33,765 nt of DNA. Origin: a virus. The stretch is from IMG/VR virus record IMGVR_UViG_3300042923_000605, positions 1 through 33,765 of that record; one strand, given 5' to 3'. Positions 2,785-24,380 of the stretch are shown here, one piece after another. The notes beneath the pieces are model-generated. The model was not told where the DNA came from. It saw only the letters and a program-made list of their open reading frames with translations, and did not search any database. Every line of letters starts with the position of its first letter. The first letter of the stretch is position 1. Position numbers and translations under genes: made by a program.

Positions 2785-4431
2785 TCAGTAGTAAATGAAG
2801 TTGTCCGGCTTCGCAGCCAGGGCACCATCCGCGATCGCATCCATGACCGCTTCATGCGCGAGAACCGACGACATCGCATAGTCGAACTTCTGGTGATCCT
2901 CGGGCTTCCCGAGGATGTACTGCCGCTCCTTCGTGAGCGGATTCAACGCACGAGACCGCACAATCGCGTTACGCACATGCGTCGTCGTCACCGGGTCACC
3001 GTCATGCCGGAACGGGGAATCCGGGTTGTACACGTCCCCACGGAACCGCTCGAGCGCAGCGTGCATCTGCGTCACACGGTTCGTGCGCCACCCGATGAAC
3101 ACCTTCTCCCCATACAGGGACGCCCACGTGTCGATCTCCGACTCCCAGAACATGACGTCGCAATACGCGCGCACAATCTCGAACCGGTTAGCGAGCTCGT
3201 CAACCGCAGCGTTCACCTCAGACTTCGGGATACGCCCGTTCCAGTCGCCCGGCTCCCACAACGTCGGGCGGTTCGCGTCCCCATACGTCGGAGTGAACTG
3301 GTACTGGTCCAACGTCTCCAACCGGATACCGGTGAAGTCGTTGTTGTCCGACCCGTCGAACCCGAGACACACCCGAGTCCGCGGCGCAACCTCCACAGGA
3401 GCGTTCTTCGCATCCCACTTCGGCATCTCAAACCACGCACCAGACCCAGACACAATCCGGTTCCCAAAGAACCGCTCCGCATCAGCCGGGTCCGTCTCGA
3501 TCAGCTCCGACGCTTCCGCCTCAATCGCATTGATCGAAACCCACGGCGCCGCCCGATAGTTGAACTCGAAAATCCGGCGCCGATCCGACTTCTTCTTGAA
3601 GTCCAGATCAGCCGGCGGCTGCTGAAAGTCCTTATTGATGTCCTTCGCTTTGGACTCATAGGTCTGCTGCGCCGTCGAGTTCTCAGCCGGATTCCACGAG
3701 TTCGTCGTCTCGATCGAACGTCCACCCATGCCGGCCAGACCACGCCGCTGAGTCTTCGCGAGCTTCCACCCGCCGTTCGTCTCCAACCACAGGCCCGTCT
3801 CATCCTGAGCCGTGAACGTGATCCGCTGCCCCAGACGAGAGGTAGCCTTCGACGTCACCGCGTCGATCCGCCCCCCACCCGGCAGGCGAATGAACTCCTC
3901 ACCCGTCTTCGGGATCAAGTCAGCAAGCGGCCCCTTGTCAATCATCGGACGCAACGCGTCATACGTGTTCGCCGTCTGATCCTCAGTCGTCGCCGTGATC
4001 TGAATCAGCGGCGTCGACCACGGGCGCCCCATCGGCTCCCCCGGCTCATACACATACTCCTCGAACACGCCCCGAGACGTGCCCCAACCGCATCCGCAAC
4101 CGAAGTCCCGACAGTCGTAAACCTCGCCACCCTCAGCGCGGCGATCGAACACCGTAGGGCCAACACCCTCAGCGCACACGAACCCCGCCACCAGCGGAGA
4201 CTTGCCCCACTTCTGAGCGCGAACAAGCTGCGACCGCCGATACACGAAAGCGTCAACCGGCTTCACGATCTTGCGACGCTCAACATCCGGGCGAATCCGG
4301 TAATGGTTCACCACGAACGCGAACTGCTCATCCCCGAGCATGAACGGGCGCCCTACGTCATCACCGTCAGGGATCACGCAATGCGACTCGATCCACGCCG
4401 CAACAACCCCCAACGTGTCAGTCGCCAGCAT
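2785..4431 (-). CDS. terL: Terminase large subunit
   Basis: 548 aa packaging motor with ATPase and nuclease domains. Around residues 71-79 is a Walker-A-like RAQKWGKSPL that lacks the classical GxxGxGKS form, as is common in phage terminases. Walker B with catalytic carboxylate is FTAQDETG, D210-E211. The C-terminal nuclease shows three spaced acidic residues in CLGFDGSD, AYCDVMFW and KFDYAMSS, as expected for the RNase-H-like fold. It starts with ATG at 4431, overlapping the small subunit gene by 14 bases. A Cys-rich insertion (CRDFGCGCGWG, about residues 107-117) lies between Walker A and Walker B and is unusual. Confidence 0.95.
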   Translation of the reverse strand: MLATDTLGVVAAWIESHCVIPDGDDVGRPFMLGDEQFAFVVNHYRIRPDVERRKIVKPVDAFVYRRSQLVRAQKWGKSPLVAGFVCAEGVGPTVFDRRAEGGEVYDCRDFGCGCGWGTSRGVFEEYVYEPGEPMGRPWSTPLIQITATTEDQTANTYDALRPMIDKGPLADLIPKTGEEFIRLPGGGRIDAVTSKATSRLGQRITFTAQDETGLWLETNGGWKLAKTQRRGLAGMGGRSIETTNSWNPAENSTAQQTYESKAKDINKDFQQPPADLDFKKKSDRRRIFEFNYRAAPWVSINAIEAEASELIETDPADAERFFGNRIVSGSGAWFEMPKWDAKNAPVEVAPRTRVCLGFDGSDNNDFTGIRLETLDQYQFTPTYGDANRPTLWEPGDWNGRIPKSEVNAAVDELANRFEIVRAYCDVMFWESEIDTWASLYGEKVFIGWRTNRVTQMHAALERFRGDVYNPDSPFRHDGDPVTTTHVRNAIVRSRALNPLTKERQYILGKPEDHQKFDYAMSSVLAHEAVMDAIADGALAAKPDNFIYY

Positions 4432-13906: not shown

Positions 13907-14542
13907 CTAGATCAGTGAGCCCCAACCGGTGAGGGATGGGGCTGTTTGGTTGCGGTCAAGCCAGCGCTTGAGTTTCGGCAGGTTCTGGTCTGGCCCGAAC
14001 ACGAGGTAGGTGCCGTCTACTGAGTCGCAGCCGATGGCGGCGGCATACCGGAGTCGACGTTCCGAGTTGACGCGCCCCATGTGTACCCACTTGCCGCAGG
14101 CCTTCGCTTCACGGGTCAGTTGCGCGGCGTGTGGGCCGAGTTTCCATTCCGTTGTGCCGCCGAGGAAGAGAGCGTCGAACTCGTCCCACGGGACGCCGAC
14201 TGTCTCGGCGCCGTCTTGTGCGACGAACGCTGCCGGGTATCCGAGTTCACGGATCTTCGGGAGCCACGGGGTTGACCGCTCGAGCGTTCCTGCGGCGTCA
14301 GCGACAACATCTGGCGCAGTGGCGAACAGGCACCTTGAGCGTTGCTCTGAGGTGAAACTGTCCAACCATGCCAACCATGCGTCTTCGCCGGGGAACCCTT
14401 TGCCAAAGCATCCGTTGTCGGCGCACCATGCGGCACCCTCGGGAATGATGTTGCCCTGCATGGGCGTGTTTATCATCCCGAGGGCGCCGGCGGTCATGGC
14501 GTTACGGATGGGTTCCGTGGACGGGTTTCCGAAGTACAGCAC
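13907..14542 (-). CDS. dpdA: DpdA-like tRNA-guanine-transglycosylase-fold protein (7-deazaguanine DNA modification)
   Basis: 211 aa from GTG 14542, overlapping the transporter gene by 41 bases. It follows the TGT/DpdA TIM-barrel plan in order: CADNGCFG (40-47, position of the TGT SDSGGFQ box with D42), FATAPDVVADA (73-83), FVAQDG (106-111), ALFLGGTTEWKLG (124-136, like the TGT VGGLSVGE strand) and WVHMGRVNSERRLRYAAAIGC with DSVDGT (152-178). That last segment matches the TGT LMGVGTPED...GxDMFDC region, with D173 and D176 as candidates for the catalytic Asp. DpdA enzymes exchange guanine for a 7-deazaguanine base in DNA, hiding it from host restriction. The C-terminal zinc domain of tRNA-acting TGTs is absent, which favours the short phage DpdA type. 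Substrate assignment is inference. Confidence 0.72.
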   Translation of the reverse strand: MLYFGNPSTEPIRNAMTAGALGMINTPMQGNIIPEGAAWCADNGCFGKGFPGEDAWLAWLDSFTSEQRSRCLFATAPDVVADAAGTLERSTPWLPKIRELGYPAAFVAQDGAETVGVPWDEFDALFLGGTTEWKLGPHAAQLTREAKACGKWVHMGRVNSERRLRYAAAIGCDSVDGTYLVFGPDQNLPKLKRWLDRNQTAPSLTGWGSLI

Positions 14543-15068
14543 GGGACACCACCCATCCGATGAGGACGAACACGAGCATCGCCCACGCCTTGCCGACAAG
14601 TTGCCCAGGGAGGGCGGGGAGGATTGCTGCGGGGCCGAACGCGATGCCGAGGAACAGGACCGTGTCGACCACGGCGCCGACGACGGTGGATGCGGCGACC
14701 GCAGCGGCCCACTTCCGGTCACCGAACCGTGCCCGCTTGCGGATCGGCGTGTACACGGCATAGTCAGCGAGTTCGGACACTAGGAACGCGACCACGGACG
14801 CGAGAGCGATGAACGGCGCAGCCATCACGAAAGACAGCGCGGCACCGGCAAGGATCGCCGCGATGACCACCCACTTGCCGAGGGTGTCCTGTATGCCGTC
14901 TCTGAGCGCGAGCGTCGCGCCAGCCACGTAGGTTCCAGCGGTAGCGGTGAGCCCGAAACCGACCGGAACGAAACCGTACTGGGTGGTGAGGACGTTCGCG
15001 AGTACGACCGTTGAAATGAAGACGGCCACCAGAATCCATCCGGTGACCTGTCGTGTGCGCTTGTTCAT
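14502..15068 (-). CDS. yhhQ: VUT-family queuosine-precursor transporter (YhhQ-like)
   Basis: 188 aa with about six hydrophobic segments. Diagnostic stretches are VLANVLTTQYGFVPVGFGL, AGTYVAGATLALRDGIQDTLG and FLVSELADYAVYTPIRKR. These match the actinobacterial form of the VUT (PF02592) family, whose E. coli member YhhQ imports preQ0/preQ1. Start ATG 15068 has a perfect GAGGAG site; it overlaps the upstream small gene by 4 bases and the DpdA-like gene by 41. A phage that imports the base but carries no biosynthetic que genes in view would rely on salvage. Family identity is firm; the cargo here is inferred from the neighbour. Confidence 0.88.
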   Translation of the reverse strand: MNKRTRQVTGWILVAVFISTVVLANVLTTQYGFVPVGFGLTATAGTYVAGATLALRDGIQDTLGKWVVIAAILAGAALSFVMAAPFIALASVVAFLVSELADYAVYTPIRKRARFGDRKWAAAVAASTVVGAVVDTVLFLGIAFGPAAILPALPGQLVGKAWAMLVFVLIGWVVSRAVLRKPVHGTHP

Positions 15069-15205
15069 TGATTCTCCTCGAAGAGTTCCGGGGCGACGCA
15101 GCGTCCGCGGGTGCGGCCTTCCGCGTCTGCGGTTTCGGGGCACGGCCATCCGGCCCCGTTCGTGTGATGGTGCGAGACGTGGGCGCTAGCGAATACGTCG
15201 GTCAT
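15065..15205 (-). CDS. 46-aa Cys/His protein ahead of the transporter
   Basis: ATG 15205 with AGGG just upstream. Contains VSHHHTNGAGWPCP and RGRCVAPEL, so two His pairs and two Cys that might bind a metal. ATGA overlaps at both ends place it between the replication-type gene and the transporter. No known function; it might belong functionally to the base-modification unit, but only proximity suggests that. Confidence 0.6.
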   Translation of the reverse strand: MTDVFASAHVSHHHTNGAGWPCPETADAEGRTRGRCVAPELFEENQ

Positions 15206-23216: not shown

Positions 23217-24380
23217 ATGCCCAGGCCACCACTGCCCCTCGAGACGTGGGGGGAGATTCGGGACTTCACCCACAACGGCAAGCCCGCAGCAAGCGCCTAC
23301 TACCGGGACAGCGATGGGCAGCGCCGCCGGATGATGCGGACGGGGAAGACAAAGACTGCCGCCAGGAACAACCTCACCGCGGCGATCCGGGCACGTATCG
23401 GCGTCAGTGACGACGACGAACTCCTCACCCCCGACACAACACTGCGGGTGCTCTCGCAACAGTGGTACGCGGAGAAGGCGTCCGAGGGCATGAAGCAGGG
23501 AACCCTACGAACCTACAAGGTGTCGCTGGACTCGCACATCATCCCGGAGATCGGCGAAGTGCGACTGTTCGAGGCCACAGTGCCCCGCATAGACCGATAC
23601 CTAAAGGCCCTAACGCGATCGTCCGGGCCGGGAACAGCGACGACCGCGCGCGTGGTACTGAAGGGCATGTTCGGGCTTGCAGTACGGCACGGGGCGATGA
23701 AAGCTAACCCCGTTGCTTCCACAGCCGCCGTGACCGTGAAGCGCGCCCGCCCGGTAGCGCCCGACAAGGCGCAGGTGGTAGGCATCCGGTCCCGGTTTCA
23801 CGAGTGGGACAACATGCTCGACGGCAGAGGGAACCCCAAGGCGACGCAGATCCTCGACGCGTGCGACTTCCTGACCGGAACCGGAATCCGCACGGGCGAA
23901 CTGCTGGCGTTGAAGTGGGCCGACCTGGACCTGCTCGATTGCACCGTGACGATCCGCCGTACGATCGCCGTGGGCGAGGATGGCAGGGCTTTCGTGCAGG
24001 ATCTTCCCAAGACGGACGACTCTGAGCGGACCCTGTTCCTTCCGACTCCCGTCGTGCAGATGCTCGCGAGGCGCCCTAGATACTCCGAGTATGTGTTCCC
24101 GTCCACGACGGGAACGTTCTGGCATCCCGCGAACTTCCGTGCTCGGTGGCGTGAGGCTTTGAAGGGTACGGAGTACGAGGGGACGACGCCCCGCGCGTTC
24201 AGGAAGCTGGTTGCGACGACGTTGCAGCGGGCGCTGGGGTCGCGTGCGGCGGGGGATCAGTTGGGTCATGCGTCGGAGCGGACGACTGAGGCGCATTACA
24301 TTATGCCGACTCGGTTGGGGCCGGTGACGGCGGTGTTGGACGACCTATTCAGCTTACAAATCACAAGGAGCGAACAATGA
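23217..24380 (+). CDS. int: Tyrosine-family site-specific integrase
   Basis: 387 aa. N-terminal arm-binding region (residues 1-70), SAM-like core-binding domain (about 77-175), catalytic domain from about 185. Catalytic residues: R225 in GTGIRTGE, K265 (LPKT) as probable β-hairpin Lys, R329 in RAFRK, H351 in LGH, and nucleophile Y361 in EAHYI. Position 326, usually His in the HxxR box, is Arg here (R326-A-F-R329-K). It integrates the phage at a tRNA gene, consistent with the tRNA-Arg 3' fragment 740 bases downstream. ATG 23217 has AGGAG. Confidence 0.95.
   Translation: MPRPPLPLETWGEIRDFTHNGKPAASAYYRDSDGQRRRMMRTGKTKTAARNNLTAAIRARIGVSDDDELLTPDTTLRVLSQQWYAEKASEGMKQGTLRTYKVSLDSHIIPEIGEVRLFEATVPRIDRYLKALTRSSGPGTATTARVVLKGMFGLAVRHGAMKANPVASTAAVTVKRARPVAPDKAQVVGIRSRFHEWDNMLDGRGNPKATQILDACDFLTGTGIRTGELLALKWADLDLLDCTVTIRRTIAVGEDGRAFVQDLPKTDDSERTLFLPTPVVQMLARRPRYSEYVFPSTTGTFWHPANFRARWREALKGTEYEGTTPRAFRKLVATTLQRALGSRAAGDQLGHASERTTEAHYIMPTRLGPVTAVLDDLFSLQITRSEQ

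Follow-up and report, generated by a model that had tools for sequence, protein, structure and literature searches.

The window analysed here, the whole of a 33,765-base virus record from IMG/VR, carries two overlapping genes that probably form a minimal salvage-type cassette for 7-deazaguanine modification of DNA, pairing a putative preQ0 importer with a distant, short DpdA-type protein whose sequence suggests that it would catalyze base exchange. The substrate would be preQ0, the target phage DNA, and the benefit protection from restriction. The source virus infects soil-type bacteria. Among its relatives with a named host, the closest is a Cellulomonas sp. KH9 prophage, whose short DpdA is 71% identical. 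The phage context of the pair comprises genes for SSB, an Erf-like recombinase, an integrase and other phage proteins, together with a gene at 2785-4431 that has a homologue in a Cellulomonas prophage (E=7e-165) and, judging from gene order, would encode the terminase. The features that bear on the pair are the following:

13907..14542, minus strand: short DpdA-like protein (phrog_15826), putative 7-deazaguanine DNA transglycosylase, 211 aa, GTG start
14502..15068, minus strand: COG1738/QPTR (YhhQ-type) transporter, putative preQ0 importer, 188 aa, ATG start
14502..14542, minus strand: overlap of the short DpdA and transporter genes, exactly 41 nt
14411..14419, minus strand: motif D42-N43-G44, aligned to DSGA of DpdA, at the end of barrel strand 3; putative acid/base Asp
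14309..14314, minus strand: motif P77-D78 (PDVVxDA), aligned to LDxIGD of DpdA, at the end of barrel strand 4
14156..14161, minus strand: motif G128-G129 (LFLGG), aligned to GG of DpdA, at the end of barrel strand 6
14066..14083, minus strand: motif H154-x-G156-R-V-N159 (HMGRVN), matched by eye to HGxGIT of DpdA, at the end of barrel strand 7
14012..14017, minus strand: motif D176-G177 (DSVDGT), matched by eye to CDSSSW of DpdA; putative nucleophile Asp
23217-24380: phage integrase

Both open reading frames lie where the initial annotation of this DNA had placed them, and the 41-base overlap that it reported is exact. The 41-nt overlap of transporter and short DpdA is seen again in several relatives (L002-L006, L021 and L022), and an overlap of this kind suggests that the two genes may be translationally coupled. 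Both are under purifying selection, with dN/dS values of 0.04-0.32 against five relatives. At the nucleotide level, the closest relatives match over 13908-15193, a stretch that ends near both edges of the gene pair, and the flanking genes differ, such that transporter and short DpdA are kept as a block while their flanks change.

The transporter is clearly recognized by Pfam Vut_1 (PF02592; E=2e-13, 51.4 bits, gathering cut-off 27.2) and narrowly by TIGR00697, "queuosine precursor transporter" (51.1 bits, cut-off 50.95, a margin of 0.15 bit), in agreement with its earlier description as a VUT/YhhQ-type queuosine-precursor transporter. It failed the model of the E. coli-type preQ0/preQ1 transporter, PRK11212 (32.9 bits, cut-off 252), and a PDB search with the transporter profile gave no matches; on these model scores we assign it to the broad COG1738/QPTR family, outside the PRK11212 equivalog. 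The cassette transporters form one clade with a transporter from the dpd island of Cellulomonas sp. KH9, with an SH-aLRT support of 100 against the hosts' tRNA-pathway QPTRs; the four host QPTRs in the comparison fall outside the phage clade, and three of these four adjoin TGT genes. The island transporter is located as follows:

L077:13548-14138: QPTR in the Cellulomonas sp. KH9 dpd island, nested in the phage QPTR clade, directly after a FolE2-like gene

This chromosomal island contains DpdA, DpdB, DpdC, DpdD, DpdJ, QueC/E/D and the FolE2-like gene, and YhhQ has been found in about 9% of dpd islands (PMC11888242).

The short protein matches PHROG 15826, annotated as of unknown function, with E=1e-91, and has zero matches in Pfam, NCBIfam and PADLOC, which covers both the TGT family PF01702 and the DpdA model of bacterial dpd islands, NF041059; sequence searches of the PDB, made with the protein and with its profile, found no TGT match and nothing useful. 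The ordered TGT motifs named in the initial annotation are all present, and across 28-32 homologues their core residues never vary (D42N43G44, P77D78, Q109, G128G129, H154, G156RVN159, R163 and D176G177). The C-terminal zinc site of TGT is absent, as had also been noted: the chain stops about 35 residues past the putative nucleophile D176, leaving no room for the tRNA-binding zinc domain. Homology to DpdA emerges at the profile level. An hhalign comparison of 50 short proteins with 13 canonical phage DpdAs gave a probability of 96% and P=2e-9, against P=0.46 for a reversed-sequence control, and its register places ADNG on DSGA, PDVVADA on LDxIGD, and the glycines at 128-129 on GG; the alignment covers residues 34-130 only, and the correspondence of HMGRVN and of the D176 nucleophile was drawn by eye. 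With just 4 DpdAs the match was weak (probability 29%), the 96% being reached with the larger alignments. The relationship is reciprocal, since a canonical DpdA HMM finds short members and a short-family HMM finds canonical members.

The AlphaFold model of the short protein is a confident alpha/beta barrel (pLDDT 91.6, pTM 0.88) in which the ends of strands 3 to 8 bear the invariant residues. A fold search of this model against BFVD returned a phage queuine tRNA-ribosyltransferase at rank 2; the search against the PDB was unspecific, with PdxJ and epimerase barrels above the TGTs and the first TGT entry at rank 31. The fold check proposed earlier thus confirmed a TIM barrel without singling out TGT and, as there is no sequence match and generic TIM barrels rank higher, TGT membership is not provable by plain sequence or fold searches alone. 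Taken from the profile comparison, the protein is best described as a distant, short DpdA-type protein, with catalysis predicted. As a side observation, the short DpdAs of L020, L021, L027 and L030 carry a CxxC...CxxC insertion directly after the GG motif, possibly a zinc knuckle.

The genomic neighbourhood of the short DpdA was surveyed in 58 loci, with genes called by a purpose-written codon-usage caller because shadow ORFs in GC-rich DNA had distorted a first neighbour analysis. No other neighbour is nearly as common as the transporter, which is adjacent in 30 loci (two of which are one Cellulomonas prophage counted twice) and on the 5' side in 29, while the other recurring neighbours, a QueF-like gene aside, stand at scattered distances. 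Phages infecting Mycobacterium, Rhodococcus and Arthrobacter have the linked pair, as do prophage or integrative loci from several families of actinobacteria. QueC/QueD genes were present in none of 18 records with an adjacent transporter and in 6 of 11 records without one (Fisher test, p=0.001 raw and p=0.03 after near copies were removed), a comparison in which several records are fragments. A que gene adjoins the short DpdA in L018, L024/L025 and L032; in L018 and L025, queC, queE and queD lie beside it and canonical DpdA was not found in that stretch or record, the short DpdA being the only DpdA-like protein found in the 57-kb record that holds L025 (G016). The que-bearing rows are scattered over the short DpdA tree, and the transporter and queCED arrangements are most simply read as two ways of providing this enzyme with one and the same base, preQ0. 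Transporter and queCED were not seen together beside a short DpdA. Import and biosynthesis do not strictly exclude each other, however, since Seuratvirus phiG7 has a QPTR inside its que cluster, at a distance from its short DpdA homologue. Beside cassettes lacking a QPTR, no substitute transporter stood out. A mirror-tree comparison of transporter and enzyme distances gave r=0.73, falling to 0.39 without divergent rows; as these rows carry the correlation, we do not count it as evidence for the pairing.

A further supply gene appears in nine sister loci (L036, L007, L009, L010, L011, L013, L015, L027 and L044; eight of them IMG/VR or phage records, the ninth a Nocardia farcinica contig), where the short DpdA is directly preceded on its 5' side by a QueF-like gene encoding about 107 aa. 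It lies between transporter and short DpdA in eight of these, L011 having no transporter, and is exemplified by a gene of Arthrobacter phage Aoka:

L036:6667-6996: QueF-like gene, Aoka gp39, annotated "hypothetical protein"

All six proteins tested score above the cut-off of Pfam PF14489 (QueF-like), and the best PDB match is archaeosine synthase QueF-Like. Known QueF-Like relatives act on preQ0, and the presence of such genes in nine sister loci points to preQ0 as the probable imported base. The gene also predicts dG+ (archaeosine) or dPreQ1 in the DNA of those sister phages.

Within the window, a search for QueC, QueD, QueE, FolE and QueF-like genes found none, as the initial annotation had observed from the sequence. 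It had called this absence provisional because the capsid-side part of the genome is missing; this module is present in the related contigs G002-G005, where the called genes are structural or unknown and the QueC and QueD models had no matches. The absence is therefore firmer than first thought. In several hosts, a full-length QueC match and a TGT are both lacking, so that salvage would be the only source of the base there.

Related arrangements are already on record. Mycobacterium phage Bhagsy (gp54-55), Rhodococcus phage ReqiPine5 (gp03-04) and Arthrobacter phage Aoka (gp38-40) carry the same two families in the same order, with genes overlapping or adjacent, at 54-61% identity; like the window, their records contain no QueC/QueD, and they differ in that the membrane gene bears no transport annotation and, in Aoka, in the additional QueF-like gene between the two. 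SEA-PHAGES records already label homologues of the enzyme "DpdA-like" (tRNA-guanine transglycosylase). Phage DpdA1, as in Enterobacteria phage 9g and Rosebush-type mycobacteriophages, shares with the short protein the motif order DSGA / LDxIGD / GG / HGxGxT / DSS and profile homology; however, it is 266-385 aa long, compared with about 205 aa for the short family, which lacks the C-terminal part, and phages of the 9g and Rosebush types, unlike the window, have preQ0 genes of their own. In Streptococcus phage Dp-1 (gp6-gp7, QueT and DpdA), a queuosine-precursor transporter gene overlaps the DpdA gene as it does here, although the transporter is an ECF-type QueT instead of a QPTR and the DpdA is of canonical length. 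The dpd islands with YhhQ (PMC11888242) likewise place a transporter from the cassette clade next to a DpdA-type enzyme, but as part of a full restriction-modification island with DpdB/C/D/J and with a DpdA of about 400 aa.

The salvage hypothesis itself was put forward by Hutinet et al. in 2019, who proposed that phages with DpdA and without preQ0 genes (Group 3), some of which have YhhQ, may import precursors, and who also reported that mycobacteria lack any queuosine genes (PMC6884629). In that work YhhQ was uncorrelated with any phage group, whereas here the transporter is tightly linked to the short DpdA. The salvage pair of the initial annotation therefore stands in its gene identities and in its logic, which are supported by the DpdA homology, the que exchange, the QueF-like genes and the dpd-clade transporter, but not as a new idea; what is new is the recognition of a short DpdA subfamily, of supply genes that can replace one another, of a QueF-like variant and of a link to dpd islands. 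Our literature search found no description of the short subfamily, its fixed QPTR link, the queCED exchange, the QueF-like variant or the host dpd link, with overlap possible in NAR 2023 (gkad657) and MMBR 2024. If the reading is true, phage DNA modification relies on a base made by other organisms, and protection from restriction would therefore depend on the environment. It also makes the point left open in 2019, that of DpdA phages without preQ0 genes, directly testable in genome-sequenced phages with M. smegmatis as host, and proposes a function for PHROG 15826 and PHROG 4899.

In the proposed mechanism, the transporter would be made together with DpdA from the overlapping genes and would import preQ0 from outside the cell, as its family, its clade and the QueF-like partners suggest. 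The short DpdA would then exchange guanine for preQ0 in phage DNA, a step that draws on its homology and on its que neighbours, and virion DNA bearing dPreQ0 would resist host restriction, perhaps including that of the host's own dpd island. Protection from restriction is established for phage dPreQ0 and dG+, and the dPreQ0 of Rosebush DNA blocks BamHI, EcoRV and NdeI (PMC6884629).

With regard to such islands, dpd-type DpdA is present in 4 of 10 sampled genomes with a QPTR and short DpdA cassette (G023, G024, G028 and G031; loci L077-L079), compared with 1 of 296 other Actinomycetes and 8 of 150 other Micromonosporaceae; the enrichment has p=0.003 in the stricter comparison, in a small sample and with kinship ignored. 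Genomes whose short DpdA lacks the transporter had none (0/10), a contrast with 4/10 that is not significant (p=0.09). A dpd restriction island distinguishes modified from unmodified DNA, and the co-occurrence suggests that the cassette may help mobile DNA get past dpd restriction. Tentatively, and with less confidence than for the cassette itself, we propose a mobile counter-defence in which actinobacterial phages and integrative elements combine their own DpdA with a swappable supply (importer, importer plus QueF-like protein, or queCED), so that their DNA would bear the same self-mark as that of the host, or a variant of this mark.

Other roles for the pair have to be weighed against a DNA-modification cassette. 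The short family occurs together with canonical DpdA in Sonali and in two gamma-proteobacterial phages (phiG7 and R29Z), so the short protein may have another function, and the name "DpdA" alone does not settle its role. It could be an accessory DpdA-like enzyme that edits or exchanges existing 7-deazaguanines, acting in a second sequence context or removing host marks, and not the main inserter, a reading with which the loci devoid of any supply gene also agree. We consider this unlikely, as most of the records, the window and the 57-kb record with queCED among them, yielded no DpdA-like protein besides the short one. An enzyme acting on tRNA, with the pair giving infected hosts back a queuosine-like tRNA modification, would be in keeping with the documented part of COG1738 transporters in tRNA queuosine salvage (PMC11130926) and with the kinship of DpdA and TGT, given that a dpd-island DpdA also matches TGT models. 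The missing zinc domain, the profile similarity to phage DpdA, the grouping of the transporters with that of a dpd island and away from host transporters linked to TGT, and the several hosts devoid of any TGT make it improbable.

Little credit is due to the view that the barrel is some other TIM-barrel enzyme of nucleoside or purine metabolism, with the transporter importing a different small molecule, which we hold to be improbable as well: the unspecific PDB fold search and the lack of PDB and Pfam matches would fit it, while the profile homology to DpdA and the queCED and QueF-like neighbours speak against it. Insertion of a salvaged 7-deazaguanine into phage DNA is our preferred reading of the pair.

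Several individual loci depart from the common arrangement. The Seuratvirus homologue of the short DpdA (L038:7938-8530, phiG7 gp20/gp21) is split in two ORFs beside canonical DpdA and que genes. A clade of Nocardia, Actinomadura and Nonomuraea, with one viral contig (L028, L048, L050, L052, L054, L056, L057 and L067), has a short DpdA with neither QPTR nor que genes nearby, and the function of the protein may differ there. In Mycobacterium phage Techage (L037, gp52), a Bhagsy-type relative, the transporter is truncated and the short DpdA absent, the two changes occurring together. Finally, the cassettes of L045, L053 and L064 lie near integrase and excisionase-like genes, in a setting that resembles an actinomycete integrative element and not a phage.
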